A stretch of DNA of 64,000 nucleotides from an uncultured Rhodospirillaceae bacterium (lineage in GTDB: Bacteria > Pseudomonadota > Alphaproteobacteria > Rhodospirillales > Magnetospirillaceae): NCBI GenBank assembly GCA_903901915.1, contig CAIUSV010000048.1, forward strand, positions 1 through 64,000. The letters run 5' to 3'. The notes below the pieces were generated by a model, which made no database searches, was not told the origin of the DNA, and saw nothing but the letters and a program-made list of their open reading frames with translations. The position numbers and the translations under genes are program-made. Shown one piece after another: positions 1-16,982 of the stretch (position 1 is its first letter; each line of letters starts with the position of its first letter).

Positions 1-58
1 GGCGAACCAGAATCTCTCGACCGGTCGGCGTCAGAACGGCATTCTGGTGGATGCCCAT
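1..58 (-). CDS. IS481-family transposase, N-terminal fragment (truncated by window edge)
   Basis: Minus-strand ATG at 58 reads MGIHQNAVLTPTGREILVR, like IS481 transposase N-termini (M-x-x-H-K/Q-N-A-x-L-T-P-x-G-R). Confidence 0.6.
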   Translation of the reverse strand, partial: MGIHQNAVLTPTGREILVR

Positions 59-141
59 TCGATCTCTCCCTGGATAGCCAAAGTCTCGCAACTTCAGCTT
101 CCTCGCTTCAGATCGAGTGGGCAACCTCCTGAGACTTCACA
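1..141 (-). mobile_element. IS481-family-like insertion sequence, one end only (runs off left edge)
   Basis: Minus strand from 141 begins TGTGAAGTCTCAGGAGGTTGC, resembling the IS481-type terminal repeat (TGTGAAG...), followed ~83 bp later by a transposase N-terminus. Confidence 0.65.
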
Positions 142-204
142 CCTAGAGTTTCCCGCATTTAAGCTGAATCGGAAAATCGGGAAACTCTTGAGCCAGAGCG
201 GCGT

Positions 205-239
205 TGTCGCATCCGCGACGCTGTGTCGGGGATGCGACA
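205..239 (+). promoter_or_regulatory. NifA upstream activator site(s) for nifB
   Basis: TGT-CGGGGATGCG-ACA at 224-239 (TGT-N10-ACA); degenerate second copy TGTCGCATCCGCGACG at 205-220; TGTCGCATCC/GGATGCGACA form a perfect 10-bp inverted repeat. Confidence 0.7.
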
Positions 240-282
240 GAGGCACACCCCAGCATTTCCGCCATTTTTTGCGCTGCAGCAC

Positions 283-299
283 TTGGCATCCCCATTGCA
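283..299 (+). promoter_or_regulatory. sigma54 (-24/-12) promoter of nifB
   Basis: TTGGCATCCCCATTGCA: GG-N10-GC spacing, close to TGGCAC-N5-TTGCA. Confidence 0.75.
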
Positions 300-336
300 A
301 AGCACTTGGCATCGACCCCTGACCGGGAGGCCGCCA

Positions 337-1812
337 GTGTCCAGCAACGTTGTTCCACTCAGCCGCATCACCAAGATGAATCCGGCCCCGGCGGCGGCGG
401 CTTCGGGCTGCGCCTCGAAATCCTGCGGCTCGTCCGACGGCCGCGGCGACCTGCCCGCCCACATCTGGGACAAGGTCAAGGACCATCCCTGCTACAGCGA
501 GGAAGCCCACCACTACTTCGCCCGCATGCATGTGGCGGTGGCGCCCGCCTGCAATATCCAGTGCAACTACTGCAACCGCAAATACGACTGCGCCAACGAA
601 TCGCGCCCCGGCGTCACCAGCGAGAAGCTGACGCCCGAGCAGGCGGCGCGCAAGGTGATCGCCGTCGCCAACAAGGTGCCGCAGCTTTCCGTGCTGGGCA
701 TCGCCGGCCCCGGCGATTCCATGTTCGACTGGCGGCGGACGTTCGAGACCTTCCGGGCGGTGGAAAAGTCGCTGCCCGACCTCAAGTTCTGCGTCTCGAC
801 CAACGGTCTGGCCCTGCCCGACCACATCGACGCCCTGGCCGACCACAACATCGATCATGTCACCATCACCATCAACATGATCGACCCCGAGATCGGCACG
901 CTGATCTATCCGTGGATCTACTTCCAGGGCAGGCGCCATACCGGCATCGAGGCCGCGCGTATCCTGCACGAGCGGCAGATGGAAGGGCTGGAGGCGCTGA
1001 CCGCCAAGGGCATCCTGGTCAAGGTCAATTCGGTGATGATCCCCGGCGTCAACGACCAGCACCTGATCGAGGTCAACGCCGCCATCAAGGCGCGCGGCGC
1101 CTTCTTGCACAACGTCATGCCGCTGATCTCGGACCCTGCCCACGGCACCCGCTTCGGCCTTGACGGCCAGCGCGGCCCAAGGCCGGCCGAGTTGAAGGAG
1201 CTTCAAGACAAGCTGGCCGGCGGCGCCAACCTGATGCGCCACTGTCGCCAGTGCCGCGCCGATGCCGTCGGCATGCTGGGCGAGGACCTGTCGCAGGACT
1301 TCACCCTGGACAAGATCGCCGAAGCCCCGGCTTACGACCCCGAACCCCGCCGGCTTTATCGTGAGGTGGTGACACGCGAACGCGCCGACCGCGACCGGGC
1401 GCTGGCTACCGCGTCGGCCGATCTGGCCGAGGCCGCACCGGCGGCGCCGACCAAGCTGGTGGCCGTCTGCACCAAGGGCGGTGGCCGCATCAATGTACAT
1501 TTCGGCCACGCCGGGGAATTCCAGGTATTCGAGGTCGATGCCACGGGCGTGCGCTTCTCCGGGCACCGCAAGGCCGAAAGCTATTGCCAGGGCGGCTATG
1601 GCGACGACGACAAGCTGGATGTGGTTCTCGCCGCGCTGGACGGCATCGAAACCGTCTTCGTCGCCAAGATCGGCCGCTGTCCCAAGGATGACCTAGGCAA
1701 GGCCGGGATCGAGGCGGTGGACAAATATCCGTTCGAGTATATCGAAACCGCGGTCGCGGCGTGGTATGCCGAGCGCTTCGGCAGCCAATCAACCGCTGCC
1801 ATCACCGCCTGA
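337..1812 (+). CDS. nifB: Nitrogenase cofactor biosynthesis protein NifB (radical SAM, C-terminal NifX-like domain)
   Basis: HVAVAPACNIQCNYCNRKYDC radical SAM motif, MRHCRQCRADAVGMLGED, NifX-like C-terminus. GTG start at 337 proposed after GGGAGG; ATG 376 is an alternative. Confidence 0.95.
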   Translation: MSSNVVPLSRITKMNPAPAAAASGCASKSCGSSDGRGDLPAHIWDKVKDHPCYSEEAHHYFARMHVAVAPACNIQCNYCNRKYDCANESRPGVTSEKLTPEQAARKVIAVANKVPQLSVLGIAGPGDSMFDWRRTFETFRAVEKSLPDLKFCVSTNGLALPDHIDALADHNIDHVTITINMIDPEIGTLIYPWIYFQGRRHTGIEAARILHERQMEGLEALTAKGILVKVNSVMIPGVNDQHLIEVNAAIKARGAFLHNVMPLISDPAHGTRFGLDGQRGPRPAELKELQDKLAGGANLMRHCRQCRADAVGMLGEDLSQDFTLDKIAEAPAYDPEPRRLYREVVTRERADRDRALATASADLAEAAPAAPTKLVAVCTKGGGRINVHFGHAGEFQVFEVDATGVRFSGHRKAESYCQGGYGDDDKLDVVLAALDGIETVFVAKIGRCPKDDLGKAGIEAVDKYPFEYIETAVAAWYAERFGSQSTAAITA

Positions 1813-1838
1813 CCTAGGAAAGTAAGGAGAAAACAATC

Positions 1839-2024
1839 ATGGCCCTTCAGATCAACGCCGACGACTGCACCTCCTGCGGCGCCTGCGAGTTCGAGTGCCC
1901 CAACGCCGCCATCAGCGCCAAGGGCGATGTCTATGCCATCAATGCCTCGGCCTGCACCGAGTGTGACGGCGAATCACCCAAGTGCCAGGCGGTCTGCCCG
2001 ACCGACTGCATCGTCAAGGCATAG
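1839..2024 (+). CDS. fdxN: 2[4Fe-4S] ferredoxin FdxN-type
   Basis: Two CxxCxxC-type clusters ([28 protein letters not shown]), directly after nifB. Confidence 0.88.
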
Positions 2025-2048
2025 TCCTTGAGATAGAGGAGAGGCCCC

Positions 2049-2363
2049 ATGAACGACACGAACATCGAGTTATGGGGCCCTCCCACCCTGGAGCAGGGTG
2101 ACAAGGTGGTGTCGTGCAAGGACGTGCGCAACGACGGCACCTATCCCGGCGCAAGAATGGGCGAGGTGCTGATACGCAAGGGCGAGATCGGCTATGTCCA
2201 TTCCATCGGCACCTATCTCAACCGCTACTACATCTACGGCGTCGAATTCATCGGCCTCGGCCGGGTCGTCGGCATGCGCGCCAGCGAACTGACCTTGCTG
2301 CAACCGGCACCGCCACCGCCACCCGATTACGATCCCGTCCCCTATCCGAGGAGTCCGTCATGA
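2049..2363 (+). CDS. nifZ: NifZ domain protein
   Basis: GDKVVSCKDVRNDGTYPGARMGEVLIRKGEIGYVHSIGTYLNRYYIYGVEF is NifZ-like; position after fdxN. Confidence 0.85.
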   Translation: MNDTNIELWGPPTLEQGDKVVSCKDVRNDGTYPGARMGEVLIRKGEIGYVHSIGTYLNRYYIYGVEFIGLGRVVGMRASELTLLQPAPPPPPDYDPVPYPRSPS

Positions 2364-2578
2364 AGGTGATGCTGCGCAAGGTCGGGGAAAAATACGAAAT
2401 CTATGTCCCCAAGAAGGACCTCGAGGAGATGGTGGTGGAGATGGAGAACGGCACTCCCTGGGGTGGCGTGATCAAGATCGCCAACGGCTGGAAATTCCAG
2501 ATGCCGGCCATGCCGCCGGACACCCGGCTGCCCATCACCGTCGATGCGAGAAAACTCGGCAACGACGACGACGAGTGA
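2360..2578 (+). CDS. nifT: NifT/FixU family protein
   Basis: MKVMLRKVGEKYEIYVPKKDLEEMVVEMEN...GGVIKIANGWKFQMP; ATGA overlap with nifZ. Confidence 0.88.
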   Translation: MKVMLRKVGEKYEIYVPKKDLEEMVVEMENGTPWGGVIKIANGWKFQMPAMPPDTRLPITVDARKLGNDDDE

Positions 2579-2588
2579 GGTGGCCGCC

Positions 2589-3440
2589 ATGCGGGACTCC
2601 CCCTCGTCACTGCTGGCCGGACTCGGGGCGAAGATCGCCGCCGGCGATCTGATCCCTTTCCTCGGCCCCGATCTGCTCGGCCTCGGCGGCGCACCGCCGG
2701 TACCGGCGGGCGCCCGCGAACTGGCGCTGCTGCTGGGGGCCAGATCGGGCGTGCCCGGCCGTATCCGAAACAATCTCTGGCATGCCGGCCAGTACATCGA
2801 AAGCCACAAGCACCGCGTCACCCTCGACCGGCTGATGGCGGAGTTCTTTGCCCCGATCCCCGCCCCGACCGCCCTGCACCTCTGGTTGGCCGGCCTGGAC
2901 CGGCTGCCGTTGGTGGTGGACACCTGGTACGATGGCACCATGCGCGCCGCGTTCGAGGCCGCCGGCCGCGCCGATTGGGGCCAGATCCAGGGCGCCTCGA
3001 AGGCCCGCAGGCTGGACGGCGGCGTCTGGGCGCGGACGGTGGCGGCCGACGGCTCCATCCTGCCCGACGAGGCCGCCGCCGCCTGGGCCACCGTATTGTA
3101 CAAGCCCCACGGCGCCGCCCAACCCACCGGCGACGTGCTGGTATCGGATTCCGACTATGTCGAGGTGTTGACCGACATCGACATCCAGACCCCGATCCCC
3201 GACGCGGTCAAGGCACGCCGTGCCGGCCGCGGCTTCGTCTTCCTGGGCTGCCGCTTCTACGACCAGATCCTGCGCACCTTTGCCCGCCAGATCGCCAAGC
3301 ATTCAGGGGGGCCGCGCTTTGCCGTGGTTCCCGAAGACCTGACCAGGAACGAGATCAGGTTCCTCGAAATCGAGGGCATCCAGCCCGTGCCCATGCCGCT
3401 GGCCGAGGCGGTCTCCATCATCACCCAACCATTGGATTAG
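2589..3440 (+). CDS. SIR2-like domain protein in the nif operon
   Basis: SIR2-like motif order: GDLIPFLGPDLL, LVVDTWYDGTMRAAF, VLYKPHG, FVFLGCRFYDQILRTF; 10-nt gap after nifT. Confidence 0.7.
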   Translation: MRDSPSSLLAGLGAKIAAGDLIPFLGPDLLGLGGAPPVPAGARELALLLGARSGVPGRIRNNLWHAGQYIESHKHRVTLDRLMAEFFAPIPAPTALHLWLAGLDRLPLVVDTWYDGTMRAAFEAAGRADWGQIQGASKARRLDGGVWARTVAADGSILPDEAAAAWATVLYKPHGAAQPTGDVLVSDSDYVEVLTDIDIQTPIPDAVKARRAGRGFVFLGCRFYDQILRTFARQIAKHSGGPRFAVVPEDLTRNEIRFLEIEGIQPVPMPLAEAVSIITQPLD

Positions 3441-3452
3441 AAGGGGAATATC

Positions 3453-3836
3453 ATGGCGAACGTGACCTTCAGCGCACCCACCCTGGACAAGGACATCACC
3501 GTCTACGCGGTGGCCGGCGACAACAAGACCCTGCTGGGCGTCGCCAAGGCCAACAACATCGCCATCCCCTGCCAATGTCAGGACGGCGAGTGCGGCTCGT
3601 GCCTGATCAAGGTAACCTTCCTGGGGACCAAGGCACCGCTGGCGGTCAGCCTGACGGAAAAGGAAAAGCTGACGCTTTCGGTCAACGGCAAGCTCAGCAA
3701 GCCGGTGCTGGAGGAGATCGAGACCAACGACGTACCGCCGGTCTATCGGCTGGCCTGTCAGTACATCGTGCGCGACGAGGACATCTTGGTGGAATTCTCG
3801 GGCGAGCCCGGCGTCGAGATCGATCTGCGGCGATAA
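3453..3836 (+). CDS. [2Fe-2S] ferredoxin resembling Azotobacter Shethna protein II (FeSII)
   Basis: AVAGDNKTLLGVAKANNIAIPCQCQDGECGSCLIKV...PPVYRLACQYIVRDEDILVEFSGEPG closely matches my recollection of the FeSII sequence ([36 protein letters not shown]...[26 protein letters not shown]). Confidence 0.8.
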   Translation: MANVTFSAPTLDKDITVYAVAGDNKTLLGVAKANNIAIPCQCQDGECGSCLIKVTFLGTKAPLAVSLTEKEKLTLSVNGKLSKPVLEEIETNDVPPVYRLACQYIVRDEDILVEFSGEPGVEIDLRR

Positions 3837-3855
3837 GGCCCACTTCAACCGGGCG

Positions 3856-3887
3856 GACGGGACGACGGCCGCCGGGCCGGTCCCGTC
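3856..3887 (+). terminator. Candidate stem-loop terminator of the nifB operon
   Basis: GACGGGAC ... GTCCCGTC 8-bp inverted repeat; no U-tract. Confidence 0.35.
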
Positions 3888-3890
3888 GGC

Positions 3891-5588
3891 TCAGCCGAAA
3901 CCGGCCTTGACCAGCAACTGATGGAATTCGCGCAACGCTTTTTGCGCCCTGACGGGGTCGGTGAAGCCGTCGATGAAGTGGGCGTCAAAATTGGGCTGGC
4001 GCAGCAGCGTCAGGATGCGATGGCGTGCCCGGGTCAGCGCCTTGCCTTCGGGCAGCACGCCGGCGGCGCAGAACTGGACCAGACGAACAGCGCGGTCGCG
4101 CAGATGCGCATCGGGGCTGTCGAGCTTTTCGATGATCTGCTCTTCGATCAGATAGTTTTCGAGGATGGTGTCGATGAACTCGGCGAGGCGCTTCTTGACC
4201 TCGGGCGGAAAGATCGAGGCCATGACCGCGTGATGGGCGACGGTGGCATGCAGCATCCGTTCCTTGGGCGGCAGGGTGCGCAGGCACAGTTCGCTTAGCT
4301 GGCGGGTCATGAAGACCAGATCGAGCAGTGCGACGATATCGGCGACATGCTCTGCGCCGAAATGGCTTCGCGCGATATCGCACAGATAGATCAGTCCCCA
4401 GGCACGGTCGGGCAGTATGCGGAACAGGCCGTTGAGCGCGGCCTTGCGGCCGGCGGCACCGCCCTGCTCGCCCATGTGGGTGTAGCGGTTGGTCAGCGCC
4501 TCGGCGGTCTCGGTGCCGGAGATGAACCCGGTGGGGGTCAAGGTCCGCAGCAGCAGGCGCTTGAACTCGTCGCCCTCCTTGGCCGGCTCGGTGCGATTGA
4601 GCGGATTGGCCGAGGCAATCTGGCGATGGGCACGGTCCAGAAGGCAGGCGCGGCTGACCGGCAACTTGTTTTCGGCGAACAGGCGATTGAGGATTTCGGC
4701 GGATTCGCCGGCATCGGTCTTGCCGATCTTCAGCTTGCCGTCGGCCAGGTCGAACATACTGATGATGGCGGCGCCCAGGCTGGGCTGCCAGCCCAGGATA
4801 TCCTGGACGACACTGGACCCCAGGACGTCGGCGATAACGCCGTCGAGCAGTTCCACCGCGTGGGGATCGGGGTCCTCCACCGCCAGGGTGCACAGCCGCT
4901 CCAGCTTGCCGACCCAGTTGCGCATGTTGATGAGATCGCGCGACAGCACCACCATGGCGAGGTAGTCGCTGTCCTCGTGGTCCCCCTGGGTAGCCAGCTT
5001 GGCGACCAGATCGCTGAAGCGACCGTCGAGCTTGGGCAGTTTCATCCCCTCGACGCGGCGCGCCCGGGCCGAGATGTCGTCGATGGTCTTGAAGATCTCC
5101 TGGCCCCGGCTGCGGGAATCCTGCTCGGAATCCTTGGTCTGAAGCTGGGCGACGCGATCTACCGCCGACGGCACCAGGGTGTCCTTTTCCTGTAGCCGCT
5201 TCAGCTCCTTGTAGCTGTGCATCAACTCGGTGGGGGTAAGGAACGCCTTGTCCAGGTAGTTACGGAACAGACGGTTGACCACGTTGCGGCTTTCCGGTCC
5301 CAGAAAGTCCTCGGGGGTCTCGCATTTCTCGGGCGCGCTATCGATGGCGACGATGCGGATGGGGCCATCGTCCTTGGCGGTGCGGGTCTCGCAGAAGATC
5401 TCGTTCTCGACCATGGTGCCATCGGCGCGCAGCCAATTGCGCACGACCTTGGCGCCCTCGCAGGTCTTGTTGGCGAGCAGCTTCTTGGCTGCCGCGCGGG
5501 CCTCGTCCTCCTTGTAAACGATGGTCTCCGTCGACCATCGTCCGTCCTTGGAAACCAGGACCTCGAAACTGGCTCGATCCGCAACCAT
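3891..5588 (-). CDS. Hypothetical protein (565 aa), helical, uncharacterised
   Basis: Start MVADRASFEVLVSKDGRWSTETIVYKEDEARAAAKKLL; upstream extension of the 1308-aa ORF is antisense to another gene. Confidence 0.7.
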   Translation of the reverse strand: MVADRASFEVLVSKDGRWSTETIVYKEDEARAAAKKLLANKTCEGAKVVRNWLRADGTMVENEIFCETRTAKDDGPIRIVAIDSAPEKCETPEDFLGPESRNVVNRLFRNYLDKAFLTPTELMHSYKELKRLQEKDTLVPSAVDRVAQLQTKDSEQDSRSRGQEIFKTIDDISARARRVEGMKLPKLDGRFSDLVAKLATQGDHEDSDYLAMVVLSRDLINMRNWVGKLERLCTLAVEDPDPHAVELLDGVIADVLGSSVVQDILGWQPSLGAAIISMFDLADGKLKIGKTDAGESAEILNRLFAENKLPVSRACLLDRAHRQIASANPLNRTEPAKEGDEFKRLLLRTLTPTGFISGTETAEALTNRYTHMGEQGGAAGRKAALNGLFRILPDRAWGLIYLCDIARSHFGAEHVADIVALLDLVFMTRQLSELCLRTLPPKERMLHATVAHHAVMASIFPPEVKKRLAEFIDTILENYLIEEQIIEKLDSPDAHLRDRAVRLVQFCAAGVLPEGKALTRARHRILTLLRQPNFDAHFIDGFTDPVRAQKALREFHQLLVKAGFG

Positions 5589-5795
5589 TCTGGCGCATCC
5601 TACCCGAAACTTTTCCCCGCCCCGGCGCCTCCAGGTGCACCGTGGATAACCAAGAAATACCCGCGATTGCCACGGAGTGTCACCTTTTTCCTTAATTCGC
5701 CACAAAGTTTGCGCAACGGATGCGCACCGCTGTTGCGGCCGTGGCCGGGAAAGGCCAGAATCGCGAAGGGATGGTTCCGCTGCGAGGGGATCGCG

Positions 5796-9366: not shown

Positions 9367-9786
9367 TCAAGCCTTCGGCTCGGGGCAGGCGCCCTCGGCG
9401 TGCCGGCACCCCTCGCCTCCCGTCTCGCTGCCCTCGCTCAGGCCGACCCAGGCCGCCACCTCGGCCTCGTCGAAGCCGACCATGTGCCGGTCACCCGACT
9501 GCATCAGCGGTCGGCGGATCAGCAGCGGATCGATGCACATGGCGGCCAGGGTCTCGCCGGCTTCCATGGTCTCGGGAACCACCGCCCCGGATTTGACCCG
9601 CGGCGCGGCGCGGTTGAACCACTCGGCCACCGGCCGGTTACCGAAAAACGGCCGCAGCGTGGCGGGGGTCCAGGTCTGTACCCGGATGTCCAGGGCGACG
9701 ACGTCGTGTCCGGATTGCGACAACACCTGCTTCTGGCGGGTATTGTTGGCGCAGCCCGGCTTTTCGTAGAACACGATCACGGCCAT
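9367..9786 (-). CDS. ArsC/Spx-like nitrogenase-associated protein
   Basis: MAVIVFYEKPGCANNTRQKQVL, thioredoxin-like ArsC fold motifs; directly downstream of draG. Confidence 0.8.
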   Translation of the reverse strand: MAVIVFYEKPGCANNTRQKQVLSQSGHDVVALDIRVQTWTPATLRPFFGNRPVAEWFNRAAPRVKSGAVVPETMEAGETLAAMCIDPLLIRRPLMQSGDRHMVGFDEAEVAAWVGLSEGSETGGEGCRHAEGACPEPKA

Positions 9787-10736: not shown

Positions 10737-11573
10737 TCAGAGATAGTCGGCACGAACGTGATAATCCCCGCCGACGACGAGGTATTCGCCCTCGCCCTTG
10801 AGGGGATGGATGGGCAGCAAGGTGTTGAAGAAGACGATCTTCACCGTCGGTACCCGTACGGTCAGGATGGTGTCGCCGAAACAGTCGGCCACCCCCCGGT
10901 CGCTGGAGAACGACGCCAGATTGTTGAGACGCATCACCGCGTTCTTCTTGTCGATGCGCTCGACGATCTGGTGTTCGTCGAAGGAATTGATGCCGCGATA
11001 GAGGGTCAGGTGACGCTGGCCGGACGCCGCGTGCCACGCCAACGCCCACTGGCAGAACTCGTAGACCATGTCGAGCTGGCAGTAGATCGAGTTGTTATGG
11101 AAACGGCTCGACATCTTCTCTTCCACATAGGCGGTCCAGCCGGCGGTGGAAAAGCGGGTGATCATTTCGCGGTGGAAGGTGGGAAACAGCCCGAAGCGGC
11201 TTTCCACCCAGCCCTTCAGCACCGCCCCCTCGGGGCCATTGGAATCGTAGCCCCATCCCTTGAGCAGCCGCAGGAAGCTGGACCGGTAGCGCCGCACCAC
11301 GGTGCCGCCGCCAGCCCTGGCGACGCCGTCCTTCTCGCGCTGCTCGGGATCGATGCCGAACATGGCCATCATGTATTTATAAAAGGCGTCGCCGGCGTCT
11401 TCGAGGCCGTCGGACTGGCCCAGCATCTCGAACATCGACCCGTTCATCTCGCGCACCCCGGAGATGTGCAGTTCGCGCGGGTCGTCGTTGAAGGCGGTGC
11501 TGCCCAACAGATTGGTGGGCAGGCCCATCAGGTTGGTGCTGTGTCCGAGGCGACGGGGCGGCGTCTGATCCAT
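10737..11573 (-). CDS. draT: NAD+-dinitrogen-reductase ADP-ribosyltransferase DraT
   Basis: TPPRRLGHSTNLMGLPTNLLGSTAFNDDPRELHISGVREMN..., upstream of draG, divergent from nifH; start at MDQTPPRR. Confidence 0.92.
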   Translation of the reverse strand: MDQTPPRRLGHSTNLMGLPTNLLGSTAFNDDPRELHISGVREMNGSMFEMLGQSDGLEDAGDAFYKYMMAMFGIDPEQREKDGVARAGGGTVVRRYRSSFLRLLKGWGYDSNGPEGAVLKGWVESRFGLFPTFHREMITRFSTAGWTAYVEEKMSSRFHNNSIYCQLDMVYEFCQWALAWHAASGQRHLTLYRGINSFDEHQIVERIDKKNAVMRLNNLASFSSDRGVADCFGDTILTVRVPTVKIVFFNTLLPIHPLKGEGEYLVVGGDYHVRADYL

Positions 11574-11612
11574 GGTGCTCCGGGCGGCTCTGGCGAACTC
11601 TCTTGCCGACGG

Positions 11613-11630
11613 ATGCAAGACTCATACCTT
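11613..11630 (-). promoter_or_regulatory. Possible sigma54-like promoter of draTG
   Basis: Minus strand AAAGGTATGAGTCTTGCA keeps GG-N10-GC and TTGCA; -24 box is weak. Confidence 0.35.
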
Positions 11631-15970: not shown

Positions 15971-16005
15971 ACCCCGGGGAGCTACCCGCGCTCCCCGGGG
16001 TTTTT
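15971..16005 (+). terminator. Rho-independent terminator of nifHDK
   Basis: ACCCCGGGGAGC-tacccgc-GCTCCCCGGGGT followed by TTTTTC. Confidence 0.85.
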
Positions 16006-16479
16006 CTTGGCCAGCCGCGCCATCGCCTCGCGCTCCAGGCGATGGGGCAGCCAGCGGTCAAGGGCGGCGAAGCCCAGCCGCCGGTAAAAGCCGCGCGCCG
16101 CCTCGTTCCAATCCAGCACATTGACATCCATGCGGCAGCAGCCCCGCGCCTCGGCCAGCGCCGCCGCCGCCCGCAACAGCGCCGCCCCCAGGCCGCCGCC
16201 CCGCACCTCCTCCTCGACGAACAGGTCGTGGATCACCAGGGTGGGCGCCCCCCGCCAGCTGGAATACGCCGGATACAGCACCGCCAGCCCCCGCACCGCA
16301 CCATCCACCTCGGCCAACAGCGCCTCGAAGCGGCGGCCGTCGCCGAAGCCGTCGGCACGGATGGCCGCCTCGGTCAGGGTAACGCCGTCGGGCTCGCCCT
16401 CGAAGGCGGCCTGAAGCCGGATCAGCCGCAGGATTTCGGCGGCGTCCTCGGGACCGGCGGGGCGGATGGAAACGGTCAT
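15982..16479 (-). CDS. GNAT-family N-acetyltransferase (SSAT-like)
   Basis: IHDLFVEEEVRGGGLGAALLRAAAALAEARGCCRMDVNVLDWNEAARGFYRRLGF. Confidence 0.85.
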   Translation of the reverse strand: MTVSIRPAGPEDAAEILRLIRLQAAFEGEPDGVTLTEAAIRADGFGDGRRFEALLAEVDGAVRGLAVLYPAYSSWRGAPTLVIHDLFVEEEVRGGGLGAALLRAAAALAEARGCCRMDVNVLDWNEAARGFYRRLGFAALDRWLPHRLEREAMARLAKKNPGERG

Positions 16480-16982
16480 GACGGCTCCAGGGCGGTACGG
16501 GCGTCGGCCCGCGTGATCATCAGGGTCAGCGGATCAACCGGCGACGGAAGGAAGCCGCCGCCGAGGTAGAATGCCGCTGCCCGCTCGTCCAGGGCGTGAA
16601 CCAGCAGGGCGCGAACCCCCGCCACCTCGGCCACCCCCAGGGTCCGCAGCAGCGCGTCGGCCAGCATGGCGCGACCAAGGCCCCGCCCCTGCCAAGCGGA
16701 ATCGACGGCAAGCCGCCCCACCACCATCACCGGCACCGGATCTGGCATGTTGCGCCTGCCCCGTCCCGGTGCGCCGGCATGGGCGACGGCCCCGACGGCG
16801 AGACAATAGAAGGCGGCCACGCTTTCGCCGGCACAGACCACATAGCTGCGAGCAGACCCCGCCGTCATCGCCGCGAGCGCCCGCCGCCGAAGCCAATCGT
16901 CCAACACCGGCTGGCCGCACTTGAACCGCGACAGGTCATGACCGGCGGCCAGAGGCTCGGGCCGTCCAAGTCTCATTCCCAC
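16476..16982 (-). CDS. GNAT-family toxin-like acetyltransferase (TacT/AtaT type)
   Basis: FKCGQPVLDDWLRRRALAA...VVGRLAVDSAWQGRGLGRAMLADALLRTL...FYLGGGFLPSP; downstream of a DUF1778-like gene with short overlap. Confidence 0.82.
   Translation of the reverse strand: MGMRLGRPEPLAAGHDLSRFKCGQPVLDDWLRRRALAAMTAGSARSYVVCAGESVAAFYCLAVGAVAHAGAPGRGRRNMPDPVPVMVVGRLAVDSAWQGRGLGRAMLADALLRTLGVAEVAGVRALLVHALDERAAAFYLGGGFLPSPVDPLTLMITRADARTALEPS

Follow-up and report, generated by a model that had tools for sequence, protein, structure and literature searches.

PnfA (PST1325) of P. stutzeri A1501 is a 31.7-kDa protein encoded divergently from nifHDK in a NifA- and sigma54-dependent manner, with close homologues in diazotrophs only and a second subfamily at about 20% identity (PMC2820453). 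A non-polar pnfA mutant exhibited 23% nitrogenase activity at 0.5% O2 and was complemented; its nifH transcripts were unchanged and it was near wild type under argon, and under anaerobic conditions with nitrate the activity was lost too (PMC2820453). The authors compared PnfA to UspA and ETF and did not name the SIR2 fold (PMC2820453). A subsequent paper lists PST_1325 under the SIR2 family (PMC11332353).

In R. capsulatus, rcc03262 lies in the cluster nifB1-rcc03265-nifZT-rcc03262, and proteomics of a nifA double mutant did not detect its protein (PMC6925177). ZMO1821 of Z. mobilis, located in the nif island, is upregulated during N2 fixation, and a deacetylase function has been proposed for it (PMC8600466). 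The FeSII ferredoxin locks nitrogenase in an oxygen-resistant complex (PMC12585515). The gene described here, hereafter the SIR2 gene, occupies the same position in a nifB-nifZ-nifT operon as rcc03262 and M. loti msi351, and a "SIR2 family" gene of Rhodovulum follows nifT, as here. Homologues on R. etli plasmids were found by sequence search. NafU of A. vinelandii is described as an inner-membrane protein and for that reason was set aside as a possible homologue.

The preliminary description of the locus had looked to a deletion without effect as evidence against a role, and the literature holds both outcomes: no effect for msi351, the mutant of which formed a fully effective symbiosis (PMC3538637), and a strong one for pnfA (PMC2820453). 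Since the msi351 mutant is fully effective, the function of the SIR2 gene is either not universal or invisible in nodules. This null phenotype could reflect oxygen control by the host, yet it argues against a general requirement.

Gene order and regulatory sequence of the nifB operon

In the window, that is, the whole stretch of 64,000 nucleotides that was analysed, the SIR2 gene runs on the plus strand from an ATG at 2589 to a stop codon ending at 3440 and encodes 283 residues; its genome holds one copy. The gene is separated by 10 nt from the nifT frame, which ends at 2578, and by 12 nt from the 2Fe-2S ferredoxin gene that follows it, and thus sits near the end of the nifB operon, in the order nifB-fdxN-nifZ-nifT-SIR2-FeSII, all on the plus strand (Table 1). 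NifB, FdxN, NifZ, NifT, and the 2Fe-2S ferredoxin were each identified by HMM. Both the reading frame and the operon placement of the preliminary description hold. Eight close pairs of the gene gave dN/dS values of 0.11–0.33, and the gene is under purifying selection. These values, together with the 143 distinct homologues described below, indicate that the frame is a real gene.

The product of the ferredoxin gene aligned with A. vinelandii FeSII over residues 1–120 of the 122-residue chain (5ffi/9cu0) and, by homology, would be a FeSII-type oxygen-protection factor of nitrogenase.

Table 1. Features of the nifB operon and its upstream sequence
Feature	Position	Strand	Basis
Candidate NifA upstream activator sequence TGTCGGGGATGCGACA (TGT-N10-ACA)	224..239	+	Pattern match
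Candidate sigma54 -24/-12 promoter TGGCATCCCCATTGCA, 5' of nifB	284..299	+	Pattern, 1 mismatch
nifB	376..1812	+	TIGR01290, E 9.7e-198
fdxN, 4Fe-4S ferredoxin	1839..2024	+	Pfam Fer4
nifZ	2049..2363	+	PF04319, E 2.6e-28
nifT / fixU	2360..2578	+	TIGR02934, E 6.3e-30
SIR2-fold nif accessory protein, probably clade I of the PnfA-type family	2589..3440	+	SIR2_2 HMM, predicted fold, Trp113/His174
Shethna protein II (FeSII)-type 2Fe-2S ferredoxin	3453..3836	+	PDB FeSII 5ffi/9cu0, E 6.4e-35

The start of nifB was set at the ATG at 376, the frame being open from 223. Because the window contains eight TGT-N10-ACA sites versus 4.9 by chance, this pattern carries little weight by itself, and the -24/-12 pattern is not enriched over chance in the window; the nifB promoter is therefore given as a candidate. 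The -24/-12 site is favoured because it lies 5' of nifB and pairs with the site at 224. It has the same TGGCAT variant as the published nifB promoter of M. loti (PMC3538637). No sigma70-type promoter was found in 1–4200. The sole plus-strand terminator-like match falls within the SIR2 gene, and shuffled sequence gives such matches at equal frequency. Convergent with the operon, a long open frame at 3891–5660 on the minus strand had no Pfam match.

Fold and catalytic positions of the 283-residue protein

The protein belongs to Pfam SIR2_2 (PF13289), with an E value of 2.7e-21 and 76.6 bits against a cut-off of 24.5, in agreement with the SIR2-like assignment that had been made from motifs. NCBIfam and PADLOC searches of the protein returned nothing useful, the sole PADLOC match being ThsA at E 0.04, and a single-sequence PDB search gave no clear relative; one was found only with the family profile. 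The AlphaFold2 model had a pLDDT of 92 and a pTM of 0.91, with the conserved loop of residues 197–199 modelled at low confidence. The best Foldseek matches of this model were the SIR2 domains of ThsA (Thoeris), DSR2, and KomC/HAM-SIR2, with E values of about 1e-10 to 1e-8 and TM scores, normalised by query, of 0.59–0.68. The predicted structure thus indicates that the protein has a SIR2 fold in common with these NADases, and bears out the kinship in fold to phage-defence SIR2 NADases that had been suggested.

In the alignment of the family profile with ThsA, N112 and H152, the catalytic residues of ThsA, correspond to Trp113 and His174, respectively; the residue counts in this alignment reproduce the ThsA numbering. 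Trp113 lies within VVDTWYDG, at the catalytic Asn position of "TNYD". All four motifs quoted in the preliminary description are present in the protein, but that reading missed the Trp at the catalytic Asn, and with regard to a loss of NAD-binding residues, which it had also raised, the Asn is lost and His174 is kept.

Among 143 distinct family proteins, which form two clades, the Asn position is occupied by Trp in all 118 members of clade I, to which the present protein belongs, and by Asn in all 25 members of clade II. The His at the catalytic position is found in 97 of the 118 clade I proteins, having been lost in 21, and in 0/25 of clade II, so that no family protein has the Asn and His together (0/143). 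As a control, 20 other SIR2_2 proteins of the same genome set were compared, and 18 of them had both motifs. The ThsA, DSR2, and KomC NADases likewise keep Asn and His, whereas the present protein has Trp for the Asn. In addition, ThsA and DSR2 carry extra domains, whereas the present protein is a lone domain, in which Pfam detected no sensor domain and no known flavin or Fe-S domain. The CobB-type sirtuin deacylases are distant kin within the superfamily, and unlike them the protein lacks the Asn of TQNID; it has one Cys in all, and the Cys4 zinc module is therefore absent.

Because the Asn and His pair is found in 0/143 family proteins compared to 18/20 controls, the NADase, deacylase, and abortive-infection readings of the preliminary description become unlikely. 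Activity as an NAD+-dependent deacylase that acts on lysines of Nif proteins would agree with the proposal made for ZMO1821 of the Zymomonas nif island (PMC8600466), with the retention of His174 in most clade I proteins, and with the presence of two GNAT acetyltransferase genes on the minus strand at 15982–16982, between nifK and nifE. The Trp in every clade I protein, the loss of the His in part of clade I and the whole of clade II, and the single Cys nevertheless make this activity very unlikely. Annotation as a deacylase or an NADase requires a catalytic pair that this family does not have, and caution is needed in reading Nif deacetylation into a SIR2 gene.

The residues E71, R76, P173, G175, D187, D189, V191, P204, R211, and G220 are invariant in both clades. 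Since Trp113 is fixed, not random, and these residues are invariant across both clades, the pocket site seems to have been selected for something else. Another SIR2_2 protein of the same genome (L190, G000:C32:27307-27678), the nearest outgroup in the tree, is also without the Asn (SVTFD).

Distribution of the SIR2 gene among nif loci

With the protein as a query, the gene was detected in 32 of the 60 related genomes searched and, across the class, in 7 of 385. In these two genome samples, the gene was carried by 37 of 45 distinct nifB-positive genomes and by none of at least 372 nifB-negative genomes, and a NifB search of the same samples found nifB in all 37 carriers (Fisher p 1.7e-45 for the tie to nifB, uncorrected for shared ancestry). 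A contig scan yielded 80 loci, 78 of which had further nif genes. The neighbourhood survey that the preliminary description had called for thus identifies the SIR2 gene as an accessory gene that recurs regularly in the nitrogen-fixation operons of proteobacteria.

Three layouts were observed: nifB-fdxN-(nifZ-nifT)-SIR2 in Magnetospirillum, Mesorhizobium, and Rhizobium; the SIR2 gene 5' of nifB in Bradyrhizobium, Xanthobacter, and Nitrospirillum; and the SIR2 gene at a greater distance from nifZ in Azoarcus and Methyloversatilis. Plasmid matches were mostly records of Rhizobium, Sinorhizobium, and Mesorhizobium, and no homologues were found in the phage records and viral contigs searched. An abortive-infection NADase brought under nif control would fit the nearest solved folds, which are those of defence NADases. 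The missing catalytic pair, the lack of a sensor domain, the lack of matches in the phage and viral searches, and a distribution that follows nifB render it extremely unlikely.

DraT, which the preliminary description had placed in the window, is encoded there at 10737–11618 on the minus strand (PF07357), and a TIGR01616 nitrogenase-associated ArsC-like protein is encoded at 9367–9786 (minus strand), adjoining draG. An NAD+-linked regulator tied to DraT/DraG switch-off, as had been proposed, would be consistent with draT and draG lying in the same window and often beside the sister clade. However, DraT is missing in 15 of 33 carrier genomes and present in 5 of 8 nifB-positive non-carriers, which makes such a link highly unlikely. 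NifZ was found in 7 of 8 nifB-positive genomes without the SIR2 gene. Neither DraT nor NifZ therefore predicts the presence of the gene.

Three genomes with a full copy of the SIR2 gene contain short fragments of it as well (L049–L053), at least one of them with an internal stop; these are probable remnants of duplicate copies. L062, a nif cluster resembling that of Magnetospirillum, belongs to a bin named Stygiobacter, probably through a binning error. In Azoarcus sp. Aa7 (L106, 10001–12813), ClpP is encoded after the SIR2 gene, and then comes a gene that is ClpX-like by its zinc-finger N-terminus.

The sister clade, oxygen-protection neighbours, and possible functions

In a tree with 19 other SIR2_2 proteins, nif clades I and II were sisters and were set apart from the 19 with a support of 99/98. 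Clade II proteins, which also score above the SIR2_2 cut-off and have the SIR2 fold by structure match, have masses of 30.9–33.5 kDa; they are carried by 3 of the 78 genomes covered in one class, by 18 of 369 sampled in another, and by two genomes from the order to which the window belongs. Of 25 clade II loci, 16 have the gene oriented divergently to nifHDK.

The agreement of the nifHDK layout, the size, and the SIR2 annotation points to clade II as the probable PnfA subfamily and to clade I, with the present gene, as the probable second one; both assignments are made on layout, size, and annotation, not sequence. Like the PnfA family, the present family is restricted to diazotrophs, as judged from the nifB-positive carriers, and has two subfamilies, here with 22–28% identity compared to about 20% for those of PnfA. 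The placement differs, pnfA being divergent from nifHDK and the present gene being part of the nifB operon. The scattered nif genes annotated as "SIR2 family" or "hypothetical" would thereby be joined with PnfA into one family. The only quantified mutant phenotype is that of the other, probably PnfA-type clade, at this 22–28% identity to clade I, and this counts against the reading favoured below.

Members of both clades have oxygen-protection genes as neighbours. In nearly every member of the window's genus, and in several related genera, a FeSII-type gene lies 3' of the SIR2 gene, and such a same-strand neighbour is confined to Rhodospirillales; in most of the rhizobial clade I loci tested, no oxygen-protection gene was found next door. 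The gene 3' of clade II encodes hemerythrin in 10 of 25 loci and Fe-SOD in 4 of 25, with both in one locus.

Overall, we lean slightly towards a function in which the SIR2-fold accessory protein, without the catalytic pair, sustains nitrogenase under respiration or oxygen. A nif-dedicated SIR2-fold protein would be made together with NifB, FdxN, NifZ, NifT, and the FeSII-type ferredoxin. Its SIR2 pocket, retooled by the fixed Trp together with E71, R76, D187, D189, P204, and R211, may bind, and leave uncleaved, a nucleotide or a dinucleotide, for example NAD(H), or may be a docking surface. The protein would act after transcription, keeping nitrogenase active with respiration and oxygen present, and would belong to a layer of oxygen and redox protection with FeSII, and in the sister clade with hemerythrin and Fe-SOD. 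A more elaborate version, which we consider quite unlikely, is that the nif regulon recruited a SIR2 domain of the defence-NADase type, that this domain ceased to cleave NAD+, and that it is now a partner of the FeSII oxygen-protection complex which senses NAD(H) or ADP-ribose without cleaving it and signals to nitrogenase the redox state of respiration.

The protein might instead be an assembly factor that acts with NifB, NifZ, or NifT in the maturation of the P-cluster or FeMo-co, the oxygen sensitivity of the mutant being secondary. The usual neighbours of the gene are nifB, fdxN, nifZ, and nifT, and the A. vinelandii factors NafH, NifW, and NifZ are encoded together (PMC6016461). We regard this role as unlikely, given that the sister clade adjoins oxygen and ROS genes instead, that the pnfA mutant was unimpaired under argon (PMC2820453), and that NifZ is present in most nifB-positive genomes without the SIR2 gene.

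The defect of the pnfA mutant with nitrate can be explained by electron supply or redox state as readily as by oxygen. In an electron-delivery role, the protein would be an NAD(H)-binding component near Rnf and the ferredoxins, needed as respiration draws down NADH. The pnfA mutant is impaired when O2 or nitrate serves as an acceptor but not when there is none (PMC2820453), the fdxN and FeSII-type ferredoxin genes are neighbours of the SIR2 gene, and about 2 kb separate one sister-clade gene from an RnfH gene. However, the protein has no known flavin or Fe-S domain in Pfam and no rnf gene is known beside most loci, and electron delivery appears improbable.

The joining of these genes into one family, its missing catalytic pair, and its placement beside oxygen-protection genes make the function of a widespread, apparently NifA-controlled, and unexplained nif gene testable. 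If the protein is an oxygen-sustaining factor, as we favour, it would be useful for moving nitrogenase into aerobic hosts.

In ten loci (L136, L138, L140, L227, L228, L229, L231–L233, and L237), the clade II gene is followed by that of a bacteriohemerythrin. Some of the hemerythrin-linked clade II loci, which often face nifHDK, add Fe-SOD and a rhodanese-ankyrin protein, and these clade II-hemerythrin loci form a putative oxygen-protection operon.
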